Positions 892 through 50,595 of a DNA stretch of 50,595 nt are shown piece by piece (positions within the stretch are counted from its first letter, which is position 1; each line of letters begins with the position of its first letter). Origin of the DNA: Halanaerobium kushneri (GTDB lineage Bacteria; Bacillota; Halanaerobiia; Halanaerobiales; Halanaerobiaceae). A program made the position numbers and the translations under genes. The stretch is from assembly GCF_900156285.1 (NCBI RefSeq), contig NZ_FTNC01000019.1, positions 1 through 50,595 of the forward strand, given 5' to 3'. Under the pieces are notes generated by a model, which saw nothing but the letters and a program-made list of their open reading frames with translations, was not told the origin of the DNA and searched no databases.

Positions 892-1641
892 ATGTTAAAA
901 GAAGAACGACAACAAAAAATCTTGGAAATTTTAAATGCTGAACAAAAAGTAATTACTAGTGATCTCAGTGAACGTTTATCTGTTTCTGAAGATACTATTC
1001 GTCGGGATCTAAAAGAACTCGATAATCAGGGCTTAATTAAAAGAGTCTACAGTGGAGCACTTAGAAAGGGTCCACCGGTTGTTGATTTTTTTTCGAGACA
1101 GAATATCGCCAGTGATATAAAAACTAAATTAGCTCAAAAAGCACTTCGCTTTATCGAAGATGGTCAGGTTTTATTAATAGATGGAAGCACAACTAATCTC
1201 CATCTTGTAAACCAACTTCCTCTTTCATTAAAAGCCACAATAATAACAAATAGTCCCCCGATTAGTATGGCTTTGTCTAATCATAAAGATGTTGAGGTAA
1301 TAATGTTAGGTGGAATTTTATTTAAACAATCAATGATAAATCTTGGCATCCAGACGGTAGAATCTTTAAATACAATGGTAGCTGACTTATATATTATGGG
1401 CATCTATAATATTGATGCAGAAATGGGAATCAGTGTTCCAACTTTGTCAGAATGCCTGGTAAAAAGAAAAATGGTTGAAGTTTCAACTGAAAAAATTGGT
1501 CTGGTAACTAAAGATAAGTTAGGAACAGTATCCAGTCAGATTATCTGCCCTTCTGAAGAGCTAACTTATATGATAACAGAGGATATTGATTCTGATATCA
1601 AAAATTTATATCAGGAAAAAAATATCGTTGTTGTTACATAA
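892..1641 (+). CDS. DeoR/GlpR-family transcriptional regulator
   Basis: This is a cytoplasmic DNA-binding repressor of sugar metabolism. Residues 1-55 (LKEERQQKILEIL, then a helix-turn-helix around 20-42 with SEDTIRRDLKELD) form the DeoR N-terminal domain. The C-terminal domain (about 75-245) is the ISOCOT-type sugar-phosphate sensor, with LIDGSTTNLHLV and a VEVIMLGG strand. ATG 892 is preferred to the TTG at 883 because GGTTGGTGAT fits as its ribosome-binding site and the protein then begins like the family, giving 249 residues. It is the only plus-strand gene in the left third and diverges from a transketolase, so it probably controls that gene, the HPr/mannitol operon, or both. The effector is unknown. 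Confidence 0.88.
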   Translation: MLKEERQQKILEILNAEQKVITSDLSERLSVSEDTIRRDLKELDNQGLIKRVYSGALRKGPPVVDFFSRQNIASDIKTKLAQKALRFIEDGQVLLIDGSTTNLHLVNQLPLSLKATIITNSPPISMALSNHKDVEVIMLGGILFKQSMINLGIQTVESLNTMVADLYIMGIYNIDAEMGISVPTLSECLVKRKMVEVSTEKIGLVTKDKLGTVSSQIICPSEELTYMITEDIDSDIKNLYQEKNIVVVT

Positions 1642-43069: not shown

Positions 43070-44194
43070 CTACTGCCAGGATTTTAATAAATTATCTAGA
43101 CTCCTATATTCCTGCCCAAAGCTTTCTGCTACTGCCTGACAGAATACTTCTCCCTGATAAATATTTAAACCTTTAGCTAGAGAATAATCATTAAGCATAG
43201 CTTTTTTATATCCAAGAGCAGCCAATTTTTTAATATAAGGAAGTGTTGCATTGGTCAGAGCAAAGGTTGAAGTCCTGGCAACTGCTCCCGGCATATTGGC
43301 TACTGAATAATGAATTACACCATGTTTGGTAAATACTGGGTTATCGTGAGTAGTTGGATAAGTTCCTTCTATACATCCACCCTGATCAATTGCTACATCA
43401 ACAACAACAGAACCATCTGTCATAGTTTTTATCATTTTTTCTGTAACCAAATTAGGGGCTTTAGCACCCGGGATCAAAACTGCACCGATTACTACATCTG
43501 CCTGACTGACCTCTTCAGCCACATGAGCATTATTTGACATAATAGTTTTTATCTGTCCCTGGAAAATGTCATCTATATAGCGCATTGTCGACTGCTTAAT
43601 ATCCATAATTGTTACATCTGCTCCCATCCCAAGAGCAATTTTTGCTGCATTACGGCCAACAATTCCTCCACCAATTACAACTACTTTAGCTGGTTTAACT
43701 CCCGGTACTCCCCCCAGCAGCATTCCACTTCCACCTTTTGGCTTTTCCAGAAAAGCTGCCGCCGCCTGTACAGATAATCTTCCTGCTACCTCACTCATTG
43801 GAGTTAAAAGTGGTAGTTCTCCATCTTCACTCTGAACAGTCTCATAAGCAACTGCAGTCACTCCTTTTTTCTTTAAAGCCTCTGTAAGTTCCTTATCTGC
43901 TGCTAAATGAAGATAGGTAAATAGAATCTGATCTTTTTTAAATAAATCATACTCTTCTTGTAAAGGTTCCTTGACTTTAATGATCATTTCTGCCCGGTCA
44001 AAAAGTTCTTTTTTATTATTAACTATTTCTGCACCTGCTTTATTATAATCCTGATCAGAGATTCCACTCCCCTGACCGGCATTTTTTTCAATTAAAATTT
44101 AGTTTCCGGCTTTTTTCAAAATTTCAGTACCCGCAGCTGTTAAGGCTACTCGATTTTCATTATTTTTAATCTCTTTTGGTACAGCAATTATCAT
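43070..44194 (-). pseudogene. ald: Alanine dehydrogenase with in-frame stop codon
   Basis: Read from ATG 44194 (GGGAGC upstream) the frame gives MIIAVPKEIKNNENRVALT, then LKKAGN, a TAA at codon 32 (44099-44101), and continues ILIEKNAGQGSG without a frameshift to the stop at 43070: 374 positions, the normal length. Relatives have AGHxVLIEKNAG here, so both the residue before the stop and the stop itself differ. The rest is intact, with KVKEP (Lys75), FTYLHLA, the Rossmann loop VVIGGGIVGRNAAKIALG and the C-terminal domain. Reinitiation at ATG 43987 would lack the pyruvate-binding Arg of ENRVAL. It would convert alanine to pyruvate and ammonia. It may be a nonsense mutation or a sequencing error. 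Confidence 0.9.
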
Positions 44195-44270
44195 TAAAAT
44201 CAGCTCCCTATCTAATTTTTAAAATTATATCTATAACTATAATATCAGATATAAAGTCTTAATAAAAGCG

Positions 44271-44307
44271 AAAAATTCCTGCTCATTTTACTGAAACAGG
44301 AATTTTT
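44271..44307 (-). terminator. Terminator after the foldase gene
   Basis: AAAAATTCCTG (44271-44281) and CAGGAATTTTT (44297-44307) make an 11-bp stem; on the minus strand TTTTTCGCTTTTATT follows. Confidence 0.85.
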
Positions 44308-44353
44308 ACAGTTAATTATATTTATATTTGATTTATATTTAAAATTCTATTTT

Positions 44354-45406
44354 TTACAGTTTAACATCTATTTCTGCATCTTCTCTTAAGCCTTCAACAA
44401 AATCTTGAAAAGCCTGATTTTGTTTCTGACTTCTCAGCTGACTTTTAATTTGAGATTTAACTTCTTCGAAATCTCTGGTTCCTGCTTCTCTAGAATCAGT
44501 AACTTTAATTAAATGATAACCAAACTGAGTTTTTACAGGTTCAGAGCTAACTTCTCCAACACTTAATTTCATTGCAGCATCACGGAAAGTTTTATCTAGA
44601 CCCTGCTCATTAGCAGTGATAAATCCTAAATCTCCACCATTTTCTGCTGTAGGACCAGTGGAATATTCTTTAGCCATTTCTGCAAAATCAGCACCATTAT
44701 TAATTTTAGCTAAAACTTCTTCAGCTTTTTCTTTTTCATCAAATAAAATATGGCTTACTTTTTTCTGCTCAGAAGTTTCATATTTTTGCTTATTGTTATC
44801 ATAATATTCCTTAGCTTCGTCATCACTTACACTAACATCTCTTACTACTTCTTCGCGTAATTTATTAACTAAAAATCCATTCATATTATTTTCAAAAAAC
44901 ATATCTTTATACTGCTGCATGGATTCAAATCCCTGCTGCTGAATTGCTTTTTCCAGCTGTTCATCATTTAAATTATTTTGCTGCTTTAGAGCATTTACCT
45001 GCTGATCAAAAATATTGTTCATTTCCTGATCACTAACTTCAATACCTCTGTCTTTTGCTTCCTGAACAAGCAGTTCATTTGTAATTAACTGTTCCAATTT
45101 TAATTTTCTAAATTCATCTACAACATTTTTACCTGCCTCTGTCTGCAGAATTACAGATGCAAATTCCTGATTTGACTGTAATAGCTGCATTAAAATATTT
45201 CTAACTCCAGCAAACTGCTCAAGTTCCTGCATCGAAATTTCTTCACCATTTACATATGCTGCCACTTCTGGAGTTTGTTCAGTTACAGCTTCTTTAACTT
45301 TTTCAGTCTTAGTTTCCTGAGCATTTTGTTCCTGAGCCATTACTGGCATTGATAAAACTAATAGAAATACTGCTGTGATAATTAAAAAGTTTTTCTTTAA
45401 ATTCAT
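44354..45406 (-). CDS. SurA/PrsA-type peptidyl-prolyl isomerase, exported
   Basis: A 350-residue exported chaperone. Residues 1-24 are a signal peptide (MNLKKNFLIITAVFLLVLS, then VMAQ). A helical SurA-like N domain follows (ELITNELLVQEAKDRGIEVS, FESMQQYKDMF). The parvulin domain near 215-310 has KVSHILFDEKEKAEE, GADFAEMAKEYSTG, GGDLGFI and FGYHLIKVTDSR. ATG 45406 with GGGAGTG is chosen over an ATG at 45448, which would lie at the transcription start. No lipobox cysteine is seen, so it is probably periplasmic and SurA-like, helping outer-membrane proteins such as the barrel at 26926 to fold. PrsA remains the alternative. Confidence 0.88.
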   Translation of the reverse strand: MNLKKNFLIITAVFLLVLSMPVMAQEQNAQETKTEKVKEAVTEQTPEVAAYVNGEEISMQELEQFAGVRNILMQLLQSNQEFASVILQTEAGKNVVDEFRKLKLEQLITNELLVQEAKDRGIEVSDQEMNNIFDQQVNALKQQNNLNDEQLEKAIQQQGFESMQQYKDMFFENNMNGFLVNKLREEVVRDVSVSDDEAKEYYDNNKQKYETSEQKKVSHILFDEKEKAEEVLAKINNGADFAEMAKEYSTGPTAENGGDLGFITANEQGLDKTFRDAAMKLSVGEVSSEPVKTQFGYHLIKVTDSREAGTRDFEEVKSQIKSQLRSQKQNQAFQDFVEGLREDAEIDVKL

Positions 45407-45456
45407 TAATAAACACTCCCAATTTAAATATTCTAAATTTTTATCCATCGTTAATT

Positions 45457-45484
45457 ATTATACCATAAATTTTGTTATAAGCAA
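45457..45484 (-). promoter_or_regulatory. Promoter of the foldase gene
   Basis: TTGCTT (45479-45484) and an extended -10 TGGTATAAT (TATAAT at 45457-45462) on the minus strand are 16 bases apart, about 50 bases before ATG 45406. Confidence 0.6.
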
Positions 45485-45534
45485 GTCAACACAGGTGATT
45501 CTAATACTATTCTAATTATTAATAAATGGCATAA

Positions 45535-45564
45535 AAAGAAGGTATCAGAACTGATACCTTCTTT
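45535..45564 (-). terminator. Terminator after fruA
   Basis: A perfect 14-bp stem with a two-base loop (45535-45548 with 45551-45564; arm AAAGAAGGTATCAG) is followed on the minus strand by TTATGCC and AT-rich sequence. Confidence 0.85.
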
Positions 45565-45615
45565 AAATTAACTATTGAATTTAAATTTTCAGCTTGAAAT
45601 TATTAATATCTGCTG

Positions 45616-47004
45616 CTACTCCTCTAATTTTGGTTTTACTATTCTCAACATTAAAGCAGTTACTATAGTACCTGCGATAATTGCCAGAGCATAAAATCCA
45701 AGATTGCTTACAACATTAGGAATTGGAAGGACAAATATACCTCCATGTGGAGCTCTTAAACCAACCCCAAACAACATTGAGAGTGCACCTGTAATAGCTG
45801 AACCAGTCATTATTGAAGGAATAACTCTGATTGGATCAGCAGCAGCAAAAGGAATAGCACCTTCTGTAATAAATGAAATCCCCATAAACCAGGCAGGTTT
45901 ACCTGCTTCAATTTCCTGACGGGTAAATCTATTTTTAAACAGTACAGTTGCCAGAGCAAGTCCAAGCGGTGGAGTCATTCCAGCTGCCATAACTGCAGCC
46001 ATCGGACCATAAATTTCAGAACCTAAAAGTCCTACACTAAATGTATAGGCAGCTTTATTAACTGGGCCTCCCATATCAAAAGCCATCATTGCTCCTAAAA
46101 TCAGCCCCAGTAATACAGCATTAGCATCGGTCATTCCCTGCAGCCATGATTCTAAACCATTCATGATACCTTCTACTGGTGGTCCGATTAAATAAATCAT
46201 TAATAAACCAACAATCAAACTAGCTAAAAATGGTAAAATTAAAATAGGCATTAATCCCTGTAAATTTTCTGGAAGTTTGATAGTCTTTTTTAACCATTGT
46301 GTAATATAACCGGCCAGAAAACCTGCTATAATACCGCCTAAAAATCCAGCACCAATACTGCTTGCCAGCATACCACCTATCATACCAGGAGCTATACCAG
46401 GACGATCAGCAATTGAGAAAGCAATATAACCAGCCAGAATAGGAACCATCAGAGCAAAGGCAGAACTTCCACCAATCTGCATTAATGCAGCCGCAAGTGT
46501 ACCTTCCTGTTCAGCAGCATTAATACCAAAAACAAAGGACAGTGCAATTGAAAGACCTCCTGCAACAACAAAAGGAAGCATAAAAGAAACCCCAGTCATT
46601 AAATGCTTATAGGCACCGGTTCTTTTTTCTTTCCGCTTGGATTTTTCATCACTTACCTGTGAATAAAGATTAGAATCCACTTCACTTTCTTTACCAGATT
46701 CAGCACCTTCAAGCGCCTGATTAATTAAGGCTTCAGCATCATTGATAGCATCAGCTACAGCCACTTCAACAATATACTTTCCACCAAAACGGTCTTTACT
46801 AACATTGGTATCAGCTGCGATAATTACGGCATCAGCTTCTTTAATATCCTGATCTGTTAATTCATTTTCTACACCTACAGAGCCCTGGGTTTCTACTTTC
46901 ATCTGCACATCCATTTTTTTGCCAGCTTCTTCTAATGATTCAGAAGCCATATAGGTATGTGCTATTCCAGTTGGACAGGAAGTTACAGCAACAATTTTTT
47001 TCAT
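45616..47004 (-). CDS. fruA: PTS fructose EIIBC
   Basis: A 462-residue membrane transporter that brings in fructose as fructose 1-phosphate. The N-terminal EIIB domain (1-100) has Cys10 in [15 protein letters not shown] and [16 protein letters not shown]. After a charged linker (about 100-128) the EIIC domain (130-460) spans the membrane with about nine helices; [16 protein letters not shown] and [19 protein letters not shown] are family signatures. ATG 47004 follows AGGAGGAGTA. The EIIA is a separate gene just upstream (47035). Confidence 0.95.
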
Positions 47005-47034
47005 AAACTACTCCTCCTAATTTTTAAAATAGAT

Positions 47035-47484
47035 TTAAATATTTTCCAACACACTCATTACTTCTTCCTCATCTTTGGCCTCTAAGAGGCTGTTCCTAAA
47101 ATCATCATGAATTAAATTTCTGGACAGTTTAGCTAACAATTTTAAATGTTCATCATGTGATTCTTCGGGAACAGTGATTAAGAAAAATAAATAGCTTGGT
47201 TTTTCATCCATAGACCCATAATCGATACCTTTTTTAGAACGACCAAAGGCAACAGCAGGTTTTTTAACTGCATCACTTTTTACATGTGGAATAGCAACAC
47301 CTTTTCCAACCCCAGTTGTACCTTTAGCCTCTCTTTCCATTGCTTTTTTTATCACTTCATCTTTATCAGTAATTATTTCATTTTCAGCCATAATTTCTAT
47401 CATTTCTTTAATAACAGATTCTTTATCCTCACTTTTTAAATTCATTTTAATTAAATTCTGATTAATAAATTCATTTACTTCCAT
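47035..47484 (-). CDS. PTS fructose EIIA
   Basis: A 149-residue EIIA that phosphorylates the EIIB domain of FruA. The active residue is His67 in TGVGKGVAIPHVKSDAV, and the C-terminal LKLLAKLSRNLIHDD helix is typical. ATG 47484 follows AAAGGGGTA. It lies between fruK and fruA with spacers of about 25-30 bases, so it is part of the same transcript. There is no fused HPr, unlike the FruB proteins of enteric bacteria; a free HPr from elsewhere must serve it. Confidence 0.93.
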   Translation of the reverse strand: MEVNEFINQNLIKMNLKSEDKESVIKEMIEIMAENEIITDKDEVIKKAMEREAKGTTGVGKGVAIPHVKSDAVKKPAVAFGRSKKGIDYGSMDEKPSYLFFLITVPEESHDEHLKLLAKLSRNLIHDDFRNSLLEAKDEEEVMSVLENI

Positions 47485-47508
47485 TATTTTAATACCCCTT
47501 TTCTTTAA

Positions 47509-48441
47509 TTAATAAATTTTTTCAACCTTAGTACTATTTTTTATTCTTTTGATTAGTTTATCATTAATCTTAGCTATCGAGCCAATTTTTACATAAGCTG
47601 TCGCCAGTGTTGCAGCAAAAATTCCAGTTTCTTTTAAACTTTGATTATCATCTATTTCAGCAGCCAGTCCAGCAACCATAGTATCACCAGCACCAACTGT
47701 AGTCTGAGAAACTTTTACCTGCGGGGTATAAATTCTATATCCTTCAGCTTCCGAAGCAATAAAAGCTCCCTTTGCTCCCAGCGAAATCATAACAATATTT
47801 ACTCCCTGATCAAGTAAATATTTTGCTCCTTTTTTTAGATCAGCATTATTATTAATCTTTCTTCCCAATAGATTTTCAATTTCTTCTAAATTTGGTTTTA
47901 CCAAATAAGGAGCCTTTTTTAAAGCCAGTTTAAATTCTTCACCAGAACTATCCAAGATTACTTTTGCTTCTTCTTCTTTAGCCTTTTCAATTAATAAGGC
48001 ATAAATATCTTTGTCTACTCCTGTCGGTAAACTTCCTGAAAGTACAAAAGTTTTATTTTTTTTAATTGCTTTTTCAAATGATTTAATAAAATCATTAATA
48101 TTTTCCTGACTAACTCTACCCGCTTCATTAATTTCGGTCTCCCGATTGGTTTCTTTTTCTTTAATTTTTAAATTTTGTCTTGTTTCAAAATCAGACCAGA
48201 TAAAATCCGATTTGACCCCTCTGTTTTCAAGCATTGAAGTTATTCTTCTGCCATTATTACCACCAACTATCCCAATTGCTTTATTCTCAATTTCTAATTC
48301 TGTTAAAACTTCTGATACATTTATTCCCTTTCCTCCAGCTAAAACTGTTGTATCTTTTACTCTATTTAATTTTCCTACTTTTAAATTATCCAGAATTATT
48401 ATTTTATCCAGAGCCGGATTTAAAGTAACTGTTAAAATCAT
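47509..48441 (-). CDS. fruK: 1-phosphofructokinase
   Basis: A 310-residue PfkB-family kinase that converts fructose 1-phosphate to fructose 1,6-bisphosphate. ILTVTLNPALDKII at the N terminus, the AGGKGINVSEVL glycine-rich loop, FVLSGSLPTGV and the C-terminal TVGAGDTMVAGL with its catalytic Asp define the FruK/LacC branch. ATG 48441 follows GGAGGTGAGC. It lies second in the operon behind the DeoR regulator and ahead of the EIIA. Confidence 0.95.
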   Translation of the reverse strand: MILTVTLNPALDKIIILDNLKVGKLNRVKDTTVLAGGKGINVSEVLTELEIENKAIGIVGGNNGRRITSMLENRGVKSDFIWSDFETRQNLKIKEKETNRETEINEAGRVSQENINDFIKSFEKAIKKNKTFVLSGSLPTGVDKDIYALLIEKAKEEEAKVILDSSGEEFKLALKKAPYLVKPNLEEIENLLGRKINNNADLKKGAKYLLDQGVNIVMISLGAKGAFIASEAEGYRIYTPQVKVSQTTVGAGDTMVAGLAAEIDDNQSLKETGIFAATLATAYVKIGSIAKINDKLIKRIKNSTKVEKIY

Positions 48442-48463
48442 CTGCTCACCTCCATTATTAAAT

Positions 48464-49225
48464 TTATGCTAAAATTATTTCAATTTCTTCCTGTTCAAGA
48501 ACTTTTGCCTTATTTTCTTCTATTGAATCTGTAATAATAAAATCAATCTGATTTAATTCAGCAAATCGATAAAAATATATTTCCTCCCATTTACTCTGAT
48601 CAAATAAAATAAAATTCTCACCTGCTATATTTAAAGCAATTTCTTTAATTTTTGCCTCATTTAAATCAGGGGTTGTAGCTGCAGATTCCAAATTAAAGCC
48701 ATTAGAACCGATAAAACTTTTATCAACATGTAATTTTTTTAAAATATCTTCTGCCAGCGGACCGATCATTGCCTCTGTTGACCATTTGAAATTTCCTCCA
48801 ATTACAATTAATTCGCAATTAAGATTATCTTCATTTATTTTATTAATGATATGCAGAGCATGAGTTACTATTGTAATATCTTTTTTCCCTTTTAAAAAGT
48901 CAATAATATATCTGGTAGTTGTTCCAGCATCAATAAATACTGTATCTCCATCTCTTATTATTTCTGCTGCCTTTTTTCCAATTTCTCTTTTTTCTTTTGC
49001 CAGTTTATCTTCTTTTTCTTTAAAACTTGGTTCCAATTTACTGCTACCACTTAAAATAGCTCCTCCATGAGTACGACGAAGAAATCCCTCTTTTTCTAAT
49101 TCACTTAAATCTCTTCTTATTGTTGCACGTGAAACATCAAATTTACTGCTCAGTTCATTAACACTTGCTCGTTTTTGATTCTCTAATAATTTTACTATTT
49201 TCTTTCTTCTCTCTTCCGCAAACAT
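48464..49225 (-). CDS. fruR: DeoR-family repressor of the fructose operon
   Basis: A 253-residue DNA-binding repressor that in its family responds to fructose 1-phosphate. The helix-turn-helix is in SVNELSSKFDVSRATIRRDLSELEKEGFLRRTHGGA (about 20-55), and the sensor domain has DTVFIDAGTTTRYI and ELIVIGGNFK. ATG 49225 follows AAGAGGTTTT. It is the first gene of the fructose operon and so controls its own transcription. The 31-bp-spaced motifs at 49242-49308 are its probable binding sites. Confidence 0.93.
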   Translation of the reverse strand: MFAEERRKKIVKLLENQKRASVNELSSKFDVSRATIRRDLSELEKEGFLRRTHGGAILSGSSKLEPSFKEKEDKLAKEKREIGKKAAEIIRDGDTVFIDAGTTTRYIIDFLKGKKDITIVTHALHIINKINEDNLNCELIVIGGNFKWSTEAMIGPLAEDILKKLHVDKSFIGSNGFNLESAATTPDLNEAKIKEIALNIAGENFILFDQSKWEEIYFYRFAELNQIDFIITDSIEENKAKVLEQEEIEIILA

Positions 49226-49241
49226 TAATAAAACCTCTTTT

Positions 49242-49321
49242 CGTGATTGTTGTTTGTTTATGATTGTTTACTTTCGTTTGTGTTCATTTATGATTATATA
49301 TTATTCGTTTTTGTTTGTCAA
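49242..49321 (-). promoter_or_regulatory. Fructose operon promoter with three phased operator motifs
   Basis: On the minus strand a perfect TTGACA (49316-49321) and TATAAT (49293-49298) have the ideal 17-base spacer. Three ACGAA motifs (plus-strand TTCGT at 49242, 49273 and 49304) are exactly 31 bp apart, one within the promoter spacer and two downstream. Each is preceded on the minus strand by a CA-rich stretch such as GAACACAAACGAA. The layout fits cooperative repression by FruR. Confidence 0.75.
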
Positions 49322-49352
49322 CACAATTTTCAAAAAATTGTAGAAAAAAATT

Positions 49353-49385
49353 AAAACTGCAGTTATGATAATAAAACTGCAGTTT
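49353..49385 (-). terminator. Terminator after the MBL-fold gene
   Basis: Two copies of the palindrome AACTGCAGTT, 20 bp apart (first at 49354-49363, second at 49374-49383), fold into a hairpin, followed on the minus strand by TAATTTTTTTCT. It stands downstream of the gene ending at 49438. Confidence 0.75.
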
Positions 49386-49437
49386 GAGATATTTTTATAA
49401 AGTCACTTATAGAATAAACTAACCATATTAAATTATT

Positions 49438-50073
49438 TTAACTATAATTTAAAACTATAACCTGCTTATTTTCTGTCTCACCAAGATTAATTTCAGATTC
49501 ATTAACATAATTAACTTCTTCTTCATCGAATTTATCGGTGAATTTTTCTACACCCGTAATAGGAAAATCTAATATATCTGTTTTAAAATGCATTGGAATA
49601 ATTAATTTTGGTTCTATTTTTTTGGTAAGTTTATAAGCAGTCTCAGCATCAATTGTATAATTTCCTCCTACAGGAATCAGTAACAGATCAACATTTTTAA
49701 TTTTATTTATAGTCTTTTCAGCTAACAAATGACCTAAATCTCCGAGATGACAGATTCTATAATCGCCTATTTCCATTAAATAAATTAAATTTTCTCCTCT
49801 GTTTTTACCTTTGCTGCTGTCATGATAAGATTTTAATGCTTCAATGTTCAGATCATCATTTTTTAAACCTTTCTCACTATCTACCACTTTAAAATCACCA
49901 TTAACTCTTTCTACTGCATTGTGGTCAAAATGCCCGTGACTGACAGTTACATAATCTGGATAATCATCAAATTTTTTATAAGGTAGACTATCATCATAGG
50001 GATCAGTCAAGATTTTAATTCCATTTATTTCAATTGAAAAACAGGAATGACCCCACCATTTAATTTTCATCAT
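49438..50073 (-). CDS. UPF0173 metal-dependent hydrolase (MBL fold)
   Basis: A 211-residue cytoplasmic metallo-beta-lactamase-fold protein. WWGHSCFSIEINGIKILTDPY opens the family; the metal site is HGHFDHN (about 45-51), CHLGDLGH and a late His in IIPMHFKT. Start codons ATG 50073 and 50070 are both possible behind GGGGGAGTGAT. Members of the group (YtkL-like, related to UlaG) are widespread, but their natural substrate is unknown. It is a single-gene unit with its own terminator, next to the rRNA/tRNA end. Confidence 0.92.
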   Translation of the reverse strand: MMKIKWWGHSCFSIEINGIKILTDPYDDSLPYKKFDDYPDYVTVSHGHFDHNAVERVNGDFKVVDSEKGLKNDDLNIEALKSYHDSSKGKNRGENLIYLMEIGDYRICHLGDLGHLLAEKTINKIKNVDLLLIPVGGNYTIDAETAYKLTKKIEPKLIIPMHFKTDILDFPITGVEKFTDKFDEEEVNYVNESEINLGETENKQVIVLNYS

Positions 50074-50225
50074 ATCACTCCCCCTTTTAATTAAAGTACT
50101 GTAAAATCTTTTAAGCTTATGAGTAATTTATTTTCTTTATTTAATTATATAATATTTTGGGGTTAAATTTCAAAATTTAAAACTTTTTAAGTCTTATAAT
50201 TTTAACTTTAGCTCAAATAAAAAAA

Positions 50226-50242
50226 AGACCCCTTAAAGGTCT
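50226..50242 (-). terminator. Terminator after tRNA-Asn
   Basis: AGACC (50226-50230) and GGTCT (50238-50242) form a short stem followed on the minus strand by a run of T (TCTTTTTTTTATT). It ends the rRNA-tRNA transcript. Confidence 0.75.
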
Positions 50243-50253
50243 CTAAATAAAAA

Positions 50254-50329
50254 TGGCTCCCCGAGCAAGACTCGAACTTGCGACAAGATGATTAACAGTC
50301 ACCTGCTCTACCAACTGAGCTATCGGGGA
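50254..50329 (-). tRNA. tRNA-Asn (GUU)
   Basis: A 76-base cloverleaf including an encoded CCA (plus-strand TGG at 50254-50256). The acceptor stem pairs TCCCCGA with TCGGGGA. The D loop has AGCTCAGTTGGTAGAGC, the anticodon loop CTGTTAA carries GTT, and the T arm holds GTTCGAGTC. It follows the 5S rRNA on the same strand, probably as the last gene of the rRNA operon. Confidence 0.97.
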
Positions 50330-50396
50330 GTATAAAATATTAATATTTTCTTTTACTGTAATATATTGTAGCATAAATATAATTATATTTCCAGTG

Positions 50397-50421
50397 CTTT
50401 TTTAGATTTTTTCTAAAAAAG
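50397..50421 (-). other. A/T hairpin between 5S rRNA and tRNA-Asn
   Basis: CTTTTTTAG (50397-50405) and CTAAAAAAG (50413-50421) can pair as a 9-bp stem. It lies between 5S and the tRNA and could be a processing site or a weak terminator. Confidence 0.4.
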
Positions 50422-50441
50422 TCAAATTAAATAAAAAAAGG

Positions 50442-50557
50442 ACCGGCAGCGACCTACTCTCCCACATCGTTACCAATGCAGTACCATAGGCGCTGGAGGA
50501 CTTAACTTTTGTGTTCGAGATGGGAACAAGTGTTGCCCCTCCGCTATTACCACCGGA
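50442..50557 (-). rRNA. rrf: 5S ribosomal RNA
   Basis: The minus strand shows conserved 5S elements in order: CCGGTGGTAATAGCGGAGGGG, CACTTGTTCCCATCTCGAAC, GTTAAGTCCTCCAGCGCC, ATGGTACTGC and TGGGAGAGTAGGTCGCTGCC. The ends were set by terminal pairing of CCGG with CCGG and may be off by a few bases. The 23S gene should lie just past the right edge. Confidence 0.95.
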
Positions 50558-50595
50558 AATCGTTATTTACATGTGATTCTGCTCTCTTCTAAAGC

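Follow-up and report, generated by a model that had tools for sequence, protein, structure and literature searches.

A predicted FruR operator of head-to-tail 10-bp repeats at the fructose operon promoter of Halanaerobium kushneri

The DNA upstream of fruR in Halanaerobium kushneri is, we consider with good confidence, the operator-promoter of an autoregulated fruR-fruK-fruIIA-fruIIBC operon, at which a DeoR-type FruR would bind five 10-bp repeats and be released by fructose 1-phosphate. This reading draws on the sequence of the window (the whole 50,595-bp stretch of DNA that was analysed) and on analogy with relatives, from which FruR binding, repression and the effector role of fructose 1-phosphate are carried over. 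From the -10 box onwards, the minus strand reads TATATAATCA TAAATGAACA CAAACGAAAG TAAACAATCA TAAACAAACA, a run of head-to-tail 10-bp direct repeats. The array comprises five units (49300-49251, minus strand), beginning inside the -10 box and continuing downstream, and very probably binds the fructose repressor FruR.

The fru operon and its promoter

The regulator gene and the three genes behind it carry the following assignments.

fruR, 48464..49225, minus strand: DeoR-family regulator, 253 aa (PF08220, 69.7 bits, and PF00455, 170.6 bits, above cut-off)
fruK, 47509..48441, minus strand: 1-phosphofructokinase, 310 aa (TIGR03828, 294.4 bits, cut-off 292)
fructose PTS IIA gene, 47035..47484, minus strand: 149 aa (TIGR00848, above cut-off)
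fructose PTS IIBC gene, 45616..47004, minus strand: 462 aa (TIGR00829 and TIGR01427, above cut-off)

All four genes lie on the minus strand with gaps of 22-30 bp and are predicted to form an operon, and fruK stands directly behind fruR in every one of the 13 loci from the order and in 59 of the 67 loci screened overall. Among the best 25 of 28 matching NCBIfam models, none was above cut-off for FruR, and the name therefore rests on the gene neighbourhood. The sole DeoR-family match in PDB sequence searches was the sensor half of the deoxyribose operon repressor (7l6l), and three more profile matches, all weak, were to other helix-turn-helix proteins.

The promoter reads TTGACA-17-TATAAT on the minus strand, the first hexamer starting at 49321 and the second ending at 49293, and bears out the perfect consensus promoter that the first-pass annotation had seen amid TTCGT words. 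FruR was found at E 1e-60 in 13 of the 38 genomes of the order, the window's own included, giving 12 other orthologous promoters for comparison, 11 of them from the window's family; the 17-bp spacer is kept in all 13. Promoter and repeats are laid out below, the unit scores coming from a tandem model whose 29 training promoters all lie outside the window's family.

T/A-rich block TTTTTTGAAAATTGTG, 49322..49337, minus strand: abuts the -35 box upstream; 11 of 16 columns invariant in 12 family promoters (window included)
-35 box TTGACA, 49316..49321, minus strand: 12/12 in the consensus scan (both hexamers together); kept in 13 of 13 promoters
possible extra unit AAAACGAATA, 49302..49311, minus strand: in the -35/-10 spacer, 2.6 bits; contains the TTCGT at 49304
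-10 box TATAAT, 49293..49298, minus strand: 12/12 in the consensus scan (both hexamers together); kept in 13 of 13 promoters
operator unit 1, TATATAATCA, 49291..49300, minus strand: predicted, 10.4 bits; overlaps the -10 box
operator unit 2, TAAATGAACA, 49281..49290, minus strand: predicted, 7.8 bits
operator unit 3, CAAACGAAAG, 49271..49280, minus strand: predicted, 0.0 bits, the weakest of the five; contains the TTCGT at 49273
operator unit 4, TAAACAATCA, 49261..49270, minus strand: predicted, 11.7 bits; the best single unit in the window, tied with two other places
operator unit 5, TAAACAAACA, 49251..49260, minus strand: predicted, 8.3 bits
third ACGAA/TTCGT copy, 49240..49244, minus strand: touches the AAAGAGG ribosome-binding site; lattice unit of -10.7 bits

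In the 12 family promoters, the TTTTTTGAAAATTGTG block is better conserved than the DNA farther upstream. Its core joined to TTGACA matches the genome once at fewer than two mismatches, and at up to three mismatches there are 15 genome matches against 12 for a reversed control. The block resembles an UP element but could also be the site of a second regulator. An inverted-repeat operator was ruled out, as the two inverted repeats found near the promoter are either located upstream of the array or extend no farther than the spacer edge.

Farther upstream, the AACTGCAGTT palindrome occurs twice, 20 bp apart (49344-49395), and is followed by a T-run on the minus strand. The pair resembles a terminator for the hydrolase gene upstream (49438-50073, minus strand); the scan did not list it, probably owing to its loop of 10 nt. 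Near the contig end, tRNA-Asn (GTT) and 5S rRNA genes (50254-50557, minus strand) are possibly the end of an rRNA operon where the assembly broke.

A 10-bp unit shared across genera

Taken together, the five units at 49300-49251 score 38.1 bits, against 3.6 bits for the best non-overlapping place in the window, while overlapping shifts of the same array reach up to 25.0 bits. Since unit 1 shares bases with TATAAT, promoter constraint explains part of its conservation; with this unit excluded, 49290-49251 score 27.8 bits, the best other place in the window reaching 10.4 bits. With the floor set at 2 bits, a chain search passes over unit 3 and counts four units in the window. At the position of unit 3, AAACGAA is found in nine of the 12 family promoters, window included.

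By itself, the sequence of the window proves neither a 31-bp nor a 10-bp period, and relatives were therefore required. Within 49226-49325, the self-match at lag 31 is unremarkable, being equalled in 22% of 5000 shuffles, and the best self-match is at lag 10, with some lag equally good in 17% of shuffles. The 5-mer pair spectrum of the window's 250-bp upstream region is led by lag 20 (z 6.4), followed by lags 13 (z 4.3), 33 (z 4.0) and 30 (z 3.4), with lag 31 at z 1.9 and lag 10 at z 1.5.

FruR loci were gathered from 21 of 59 genomes of the class and from 50 of 398 genomes of a phylum sample. Eight of the 67 screened loci, from four genera, had no detectable fruK in the stretch and were excluded (L058, L069, L070, L071, L073, L074, L075 and L079), and the remaining 59 were reduced manually to a single locus for each genus, giving 30 genus labels plus L024, a Clostridium locus, or 31 in all. 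L015-L022 and L025-L027, which duplicate other loci, were excluded from the screen, and L023, equal in length to L065, was treated as the same contig. For one genus, L031 was chosen over L029 and L030, whose repeats sit about 220 bp before fruR. Of 22 places lacking a locus, two stayed outside the sample, a second match in G176 and another in G154.

In the resulting 31 fruR promoters, one per genus group and all from genomes chosen because they have a FruR match with fruK next to it, 128 pairs of identical 5-mers are 10 bp apart, against 19.7 in dinucleotide shuffles (z 18.2), and lags 20 (z 13.5) and 30 (z 11.1) stand out likewise, the next being lag 21 (z 5.5), with lag 31 at z 3.4. The peaks persist without the window's family (z 17.2, 12.3 and 10.5 at 10, 20 and 30 bp). 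When one promoter per group was redrawn at random from the full set of 59, lags 10, 20 and 30 ranked as the top three in 20 of 20 redraws, z ranging from 16.2 to 23.5 at lag 10, from 8.4 to 15.6 at lag 20, from 8.4 to 13.0 at lag 30 and from 1.3 to 4.7 at lag 31. Fitted to the 29 outside promoters, a four-unit tandem model gave a log-likelihood ratio of 466.8 for a 10-bp unit, against 64.8-141.0 for units of 8, 9, 11 and 12 bp; 12 shuffled sets, fitted from equally many starts, gave 30.2-45.8. The consensus of the repeat unit is WAAAYRATCA.

Of the 29 outside promoters, 26 contain a chain of three or more units and 23 one of four or more, with steps of 9-11 or 20-21 bp allowed; these counts are in-sample, the 29 promoters being the training set. 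An array of more than one or two operator-like units, roughly helically phased around the promoter of a fructose regulator, stands as the first-pass annotation had proposed, its unit being a 10-bp direct repeat in five contiguous copies and not TTCGT every 31 bp. The array cannot be called unusual, given these chains before fruR in other genera and the similar operator described for the FruR of Lactococcus lactis. Some arrays are weak: L014, in the same order, has barely one (a four-unit score of 10.8 bits and a single unit by the chain search); L038 and L077 have four-unit scores of 10.3 and 17.3 bits; and the family loci L008 and L007 have four-unit scores of just 17.0 and 22.2 bits.

The TTCGT words and the upstream reach of the array

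The first-pass annotation had read three TTCGT words at an exact 31-bp spacing, which was a miscount. Within 49226-49340, TTCGT does occur three times, and two of the positions given, 49273 and 49304, were right; the first copy starts at 49240, not 49242, and the real spacings are 33 and 31 bp. Three equally spaced TTCGT words appear in none of 5000 dinucleotide shuffles; the real ones are unequally spaced. The word itself is common, with 19 copies on the plus strand and 12 on the minus strand of the 50,595-bp window.

Across the 13 promoters, the ACGAA pair corresponding to 49304 and 49273, at -16 and +15 counted from where the -10 box ends, keeps its exact spacing in seven, whereas the third ACGAA, at +48, occurs in the window alone (one of 13), the same position being occupied in none of the 12 relatives. 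ACGAA is found instead at +35 in L011 and L012 and at +5 in L007. Three separate TTCGT-centred FruR sites, set every 31 bp on one helix face, would be consistent with the spacer ACGAA and its copy 31 bp downstream in those seven promoters, and with 31 bp being close to three helical turns. We nevertheless give this arrangement next to no credence: the words are in fact 33 and 31 bp apart, the 49240 copy is missing from the equivalent position in every relative, and the 31 genus groups show a period of 10, lag 31 being a minor shoulder (z 3.4 against 11.1 at lag 30). TTCGT falls, moreover, in the weakest unit and in a non-site. As the middle copy lies in a 0.0-bit unit and part of the 49240 copy in the next lattice position, which scores -10.7 bits, the word appears mostly to mark the seam AAAC/GA between 10-bp units and not their core, and the copy at 49240..49244 is judged to lie outside the operator.

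The 31-bp distance between the two remaining copies can be read on the array of 10-bp repeats as 11 + 10 + 10, AAAACGAATA starting 11 bp from the start of unit 1. In Halanaerobium, the array may have gained one or two further units on its upstream side (AAAACGAATA in the spacer and TTGACAAACA at the -35 box), set off by a step of 11 bp. FruR would then cover the whole core promoter, and AAACGAA would be a lineage-specific unit variant. We hold this extension to be a serious possibility that falls somewhat short of an even chance; it would add to the five-unit operator and is compatible with it, not exclusive of it. ACGAA is present in the spacer of eight of the 12 family promoters, window included, and chains reach above the -10-box unit in other genera too, for example in L036, L041, L047 and L054. 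On the other side, the spacer unit scores 2.6 bits and TTGACAAACA 0.2 bits in the window, and the spacer ACGAA is missing in L007, L010, L011 and L012 though the downstream units remain. The spacer copy and the AAACGAA variant may, on modest evidence, be particular to Halanaerobium.

Comparison of the upstream regions of L028, L031 and L032 with that in the window places a TTTTTTGAAAA-like stretch between the -35 and -10 boxes in some relatives of the class but upstream of -35 in Halanaerobium, and some 20 bp carrying a new -35 box and the spacer units might have been gained in Halanaerobium. In its fullest form, the proposal would be that the Halanaerobium array is unbroken between the -35 box and about +35, makes a step of 11 bp at the -10 box and has drifted to the AAACGAA variant, which we find rather unlikely. 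If true, it would mean a continuous row of repressor over the entire core promoter, where many outgroup genera use the downstream half only.

Specificity, known FruR operators and a proposed mechanism

The genome holds ten PF08220 matches, the best four of which, fruR and three genes of similar length, were compared. The three other full-length DeoR-type genes have no 10-bp array within 250 bp upstream, the best four-unit scores there being 1.5, -18.1 and -10.4. Far upstream of one of them (L082), at position 176, three units match with 13.2 bits. A 39-bp pattern of the downstream array, searched with up to three mismatches, occurs once each in five of 12 genus genomes and always just upstream of fruR; under this strict pattern, no second copy was found beyond the fru promoters of the 12 genomes. 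With the strict pattern confined to fruR and no array before the other DeoR-type genes, the main target of FruR here is probably its own operon, though weaker sites may exist. A short spacer/-10 pattern was dropped as a regulon probe, its 110 matches being fewer than the 284 of a reversed control. The window carries a second DeoR-family gene (907-1062, plus strand; PF08220, 68.4 bits), whose 250 bp upstream are without a 10-bp array.

These results also bear on whether a different regulator, or simply an A-rich unstructured leader, could account for the repeats, with FruR binding elsewhere. The repeats are A-rich, the block upstream of the -35 box is strongly conserved too, and the FruR of Staphylococcus aureus binds upstream of -35 (PMC10765703). 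We nonetheless judge this account very unlikely, as dinucleotide shuffles lack the peaks at 10, 20 and 30 bp, the array accompanies fruR-fruK in 31 genus groups (with the weak cases L014, L038, L077, L008 and L007), and it is missing before the three other DeoR-type genes compared in the genome.

No structure was detected in the leader RNA (z 1.14), an argument against an RNA switch. In 44000-50595, the only Rfam matches at the gathering score were 5S rRNA and one tRNA.

The LacI-type FruR/Cra of enterobacteria, a LacI-family regulator with palindromic sites, was excluded as a model, the window's regulator being of the DeoR family and its repeats direct. The operator predicted here follows a known layout for DeoR-type FruR. 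The citing papers give four adjacent, non-palindromic repeats of 10 bp as potential binding sites of L. lactis FruR (Barriere et al. 2005, cited in PMC10765703 and PMC2222622). As described, the two systems share a DeoR-type FruR and adjacent 10-bp repeats at the fruR promoter, and the window has the features of this kind: a regulator of the DeoR family (HTH_DeoR and DeoRC), fruK and PTS neighbours and at least four adjacent 10-bp repeats. The L. lactis repeats are said to overlap the -35 box, whereas those of the window start at the -10 box, go downstream and number five.

The FruR sites of Thermotoga and Caldicellulosiruptor (RegPrecise, as split in PMC7071700) read (A/G)TCATAA(A/T)NNNNNAT(A/C)ANN. 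Like the array of the window, they lie before a fru operon, and their ATCATAA core is found in the window at the seam of units 1 and 2, ATCATAAAT, and at that of units 4 and 5, ATCATAAAC; the same text likewise reads the long site as adjacent half-sites. They differ in being described as two sites of about 18-20 bp and not as a 10-bp ladder, and are prediction only.

In S. aureus, according to PMC10765703, FruR represses fruRKT and fructose 1-phosphate releases it from DNA in EMSA. It is DeoR-type, as in the window, and its footprint extends from -85 to -40, upstream of the promoter (PMC10765703); by the authors' account the 10-bp motif is missing there, whereas the window carries 10-bp repeats. 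This difference in site indicates that FruR operators are not uniform. In other sources, Corynebacterium glutamicum SugR is fructose 1-phosphate responsive too (PMC2222622), DeoR-family FruR is given for the fru genes of Caldicellulosiruptor and two Thermotoga species (PMC8579813, PMC3750489), FruR regulons are named for lactic acid bacteria, with the motif absent from the text examined (PMC3616900), and for Listeria the text examined likewise contains no motif (PMC9439231). Among the papers listed on DeoR regulators and tandem direct repeats, or on fructose, the PTS and FruR in Halanaerobium, none described this promoter, which is no proof of absence.

Regulation would then proceed as follows. 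With about one unit per helical turn, the array would span the predicted start site and some 35 bp of leader, and FruR would most likely occupy two or more adjacent units at once, cooperatively and roughly on one helix face; the cooperative binding, the stoichiometry of FruR and the position of the start site are suppositions. When fructose is absent, FruR would block RNA polymerase at a promoter otherwise expected to be strong. Fructose entering via the PTS would yield fructose 1-phosphate, which would bind the DeoRC domain and release FruR, and FruK would clear the signal.

The misread 31-bp spacing is replaced by a well-supported 10-bp unit, WAAAYRATCA, drawn from 29 promoters, each from a genus group outside the window's family. 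The unit is usable for finding fructose regulons and for designing footprint tests, and the compact predicted operator would be a usable substrate for studying how a DeoR-type protein reads head-to-tail 10-bp repeats.
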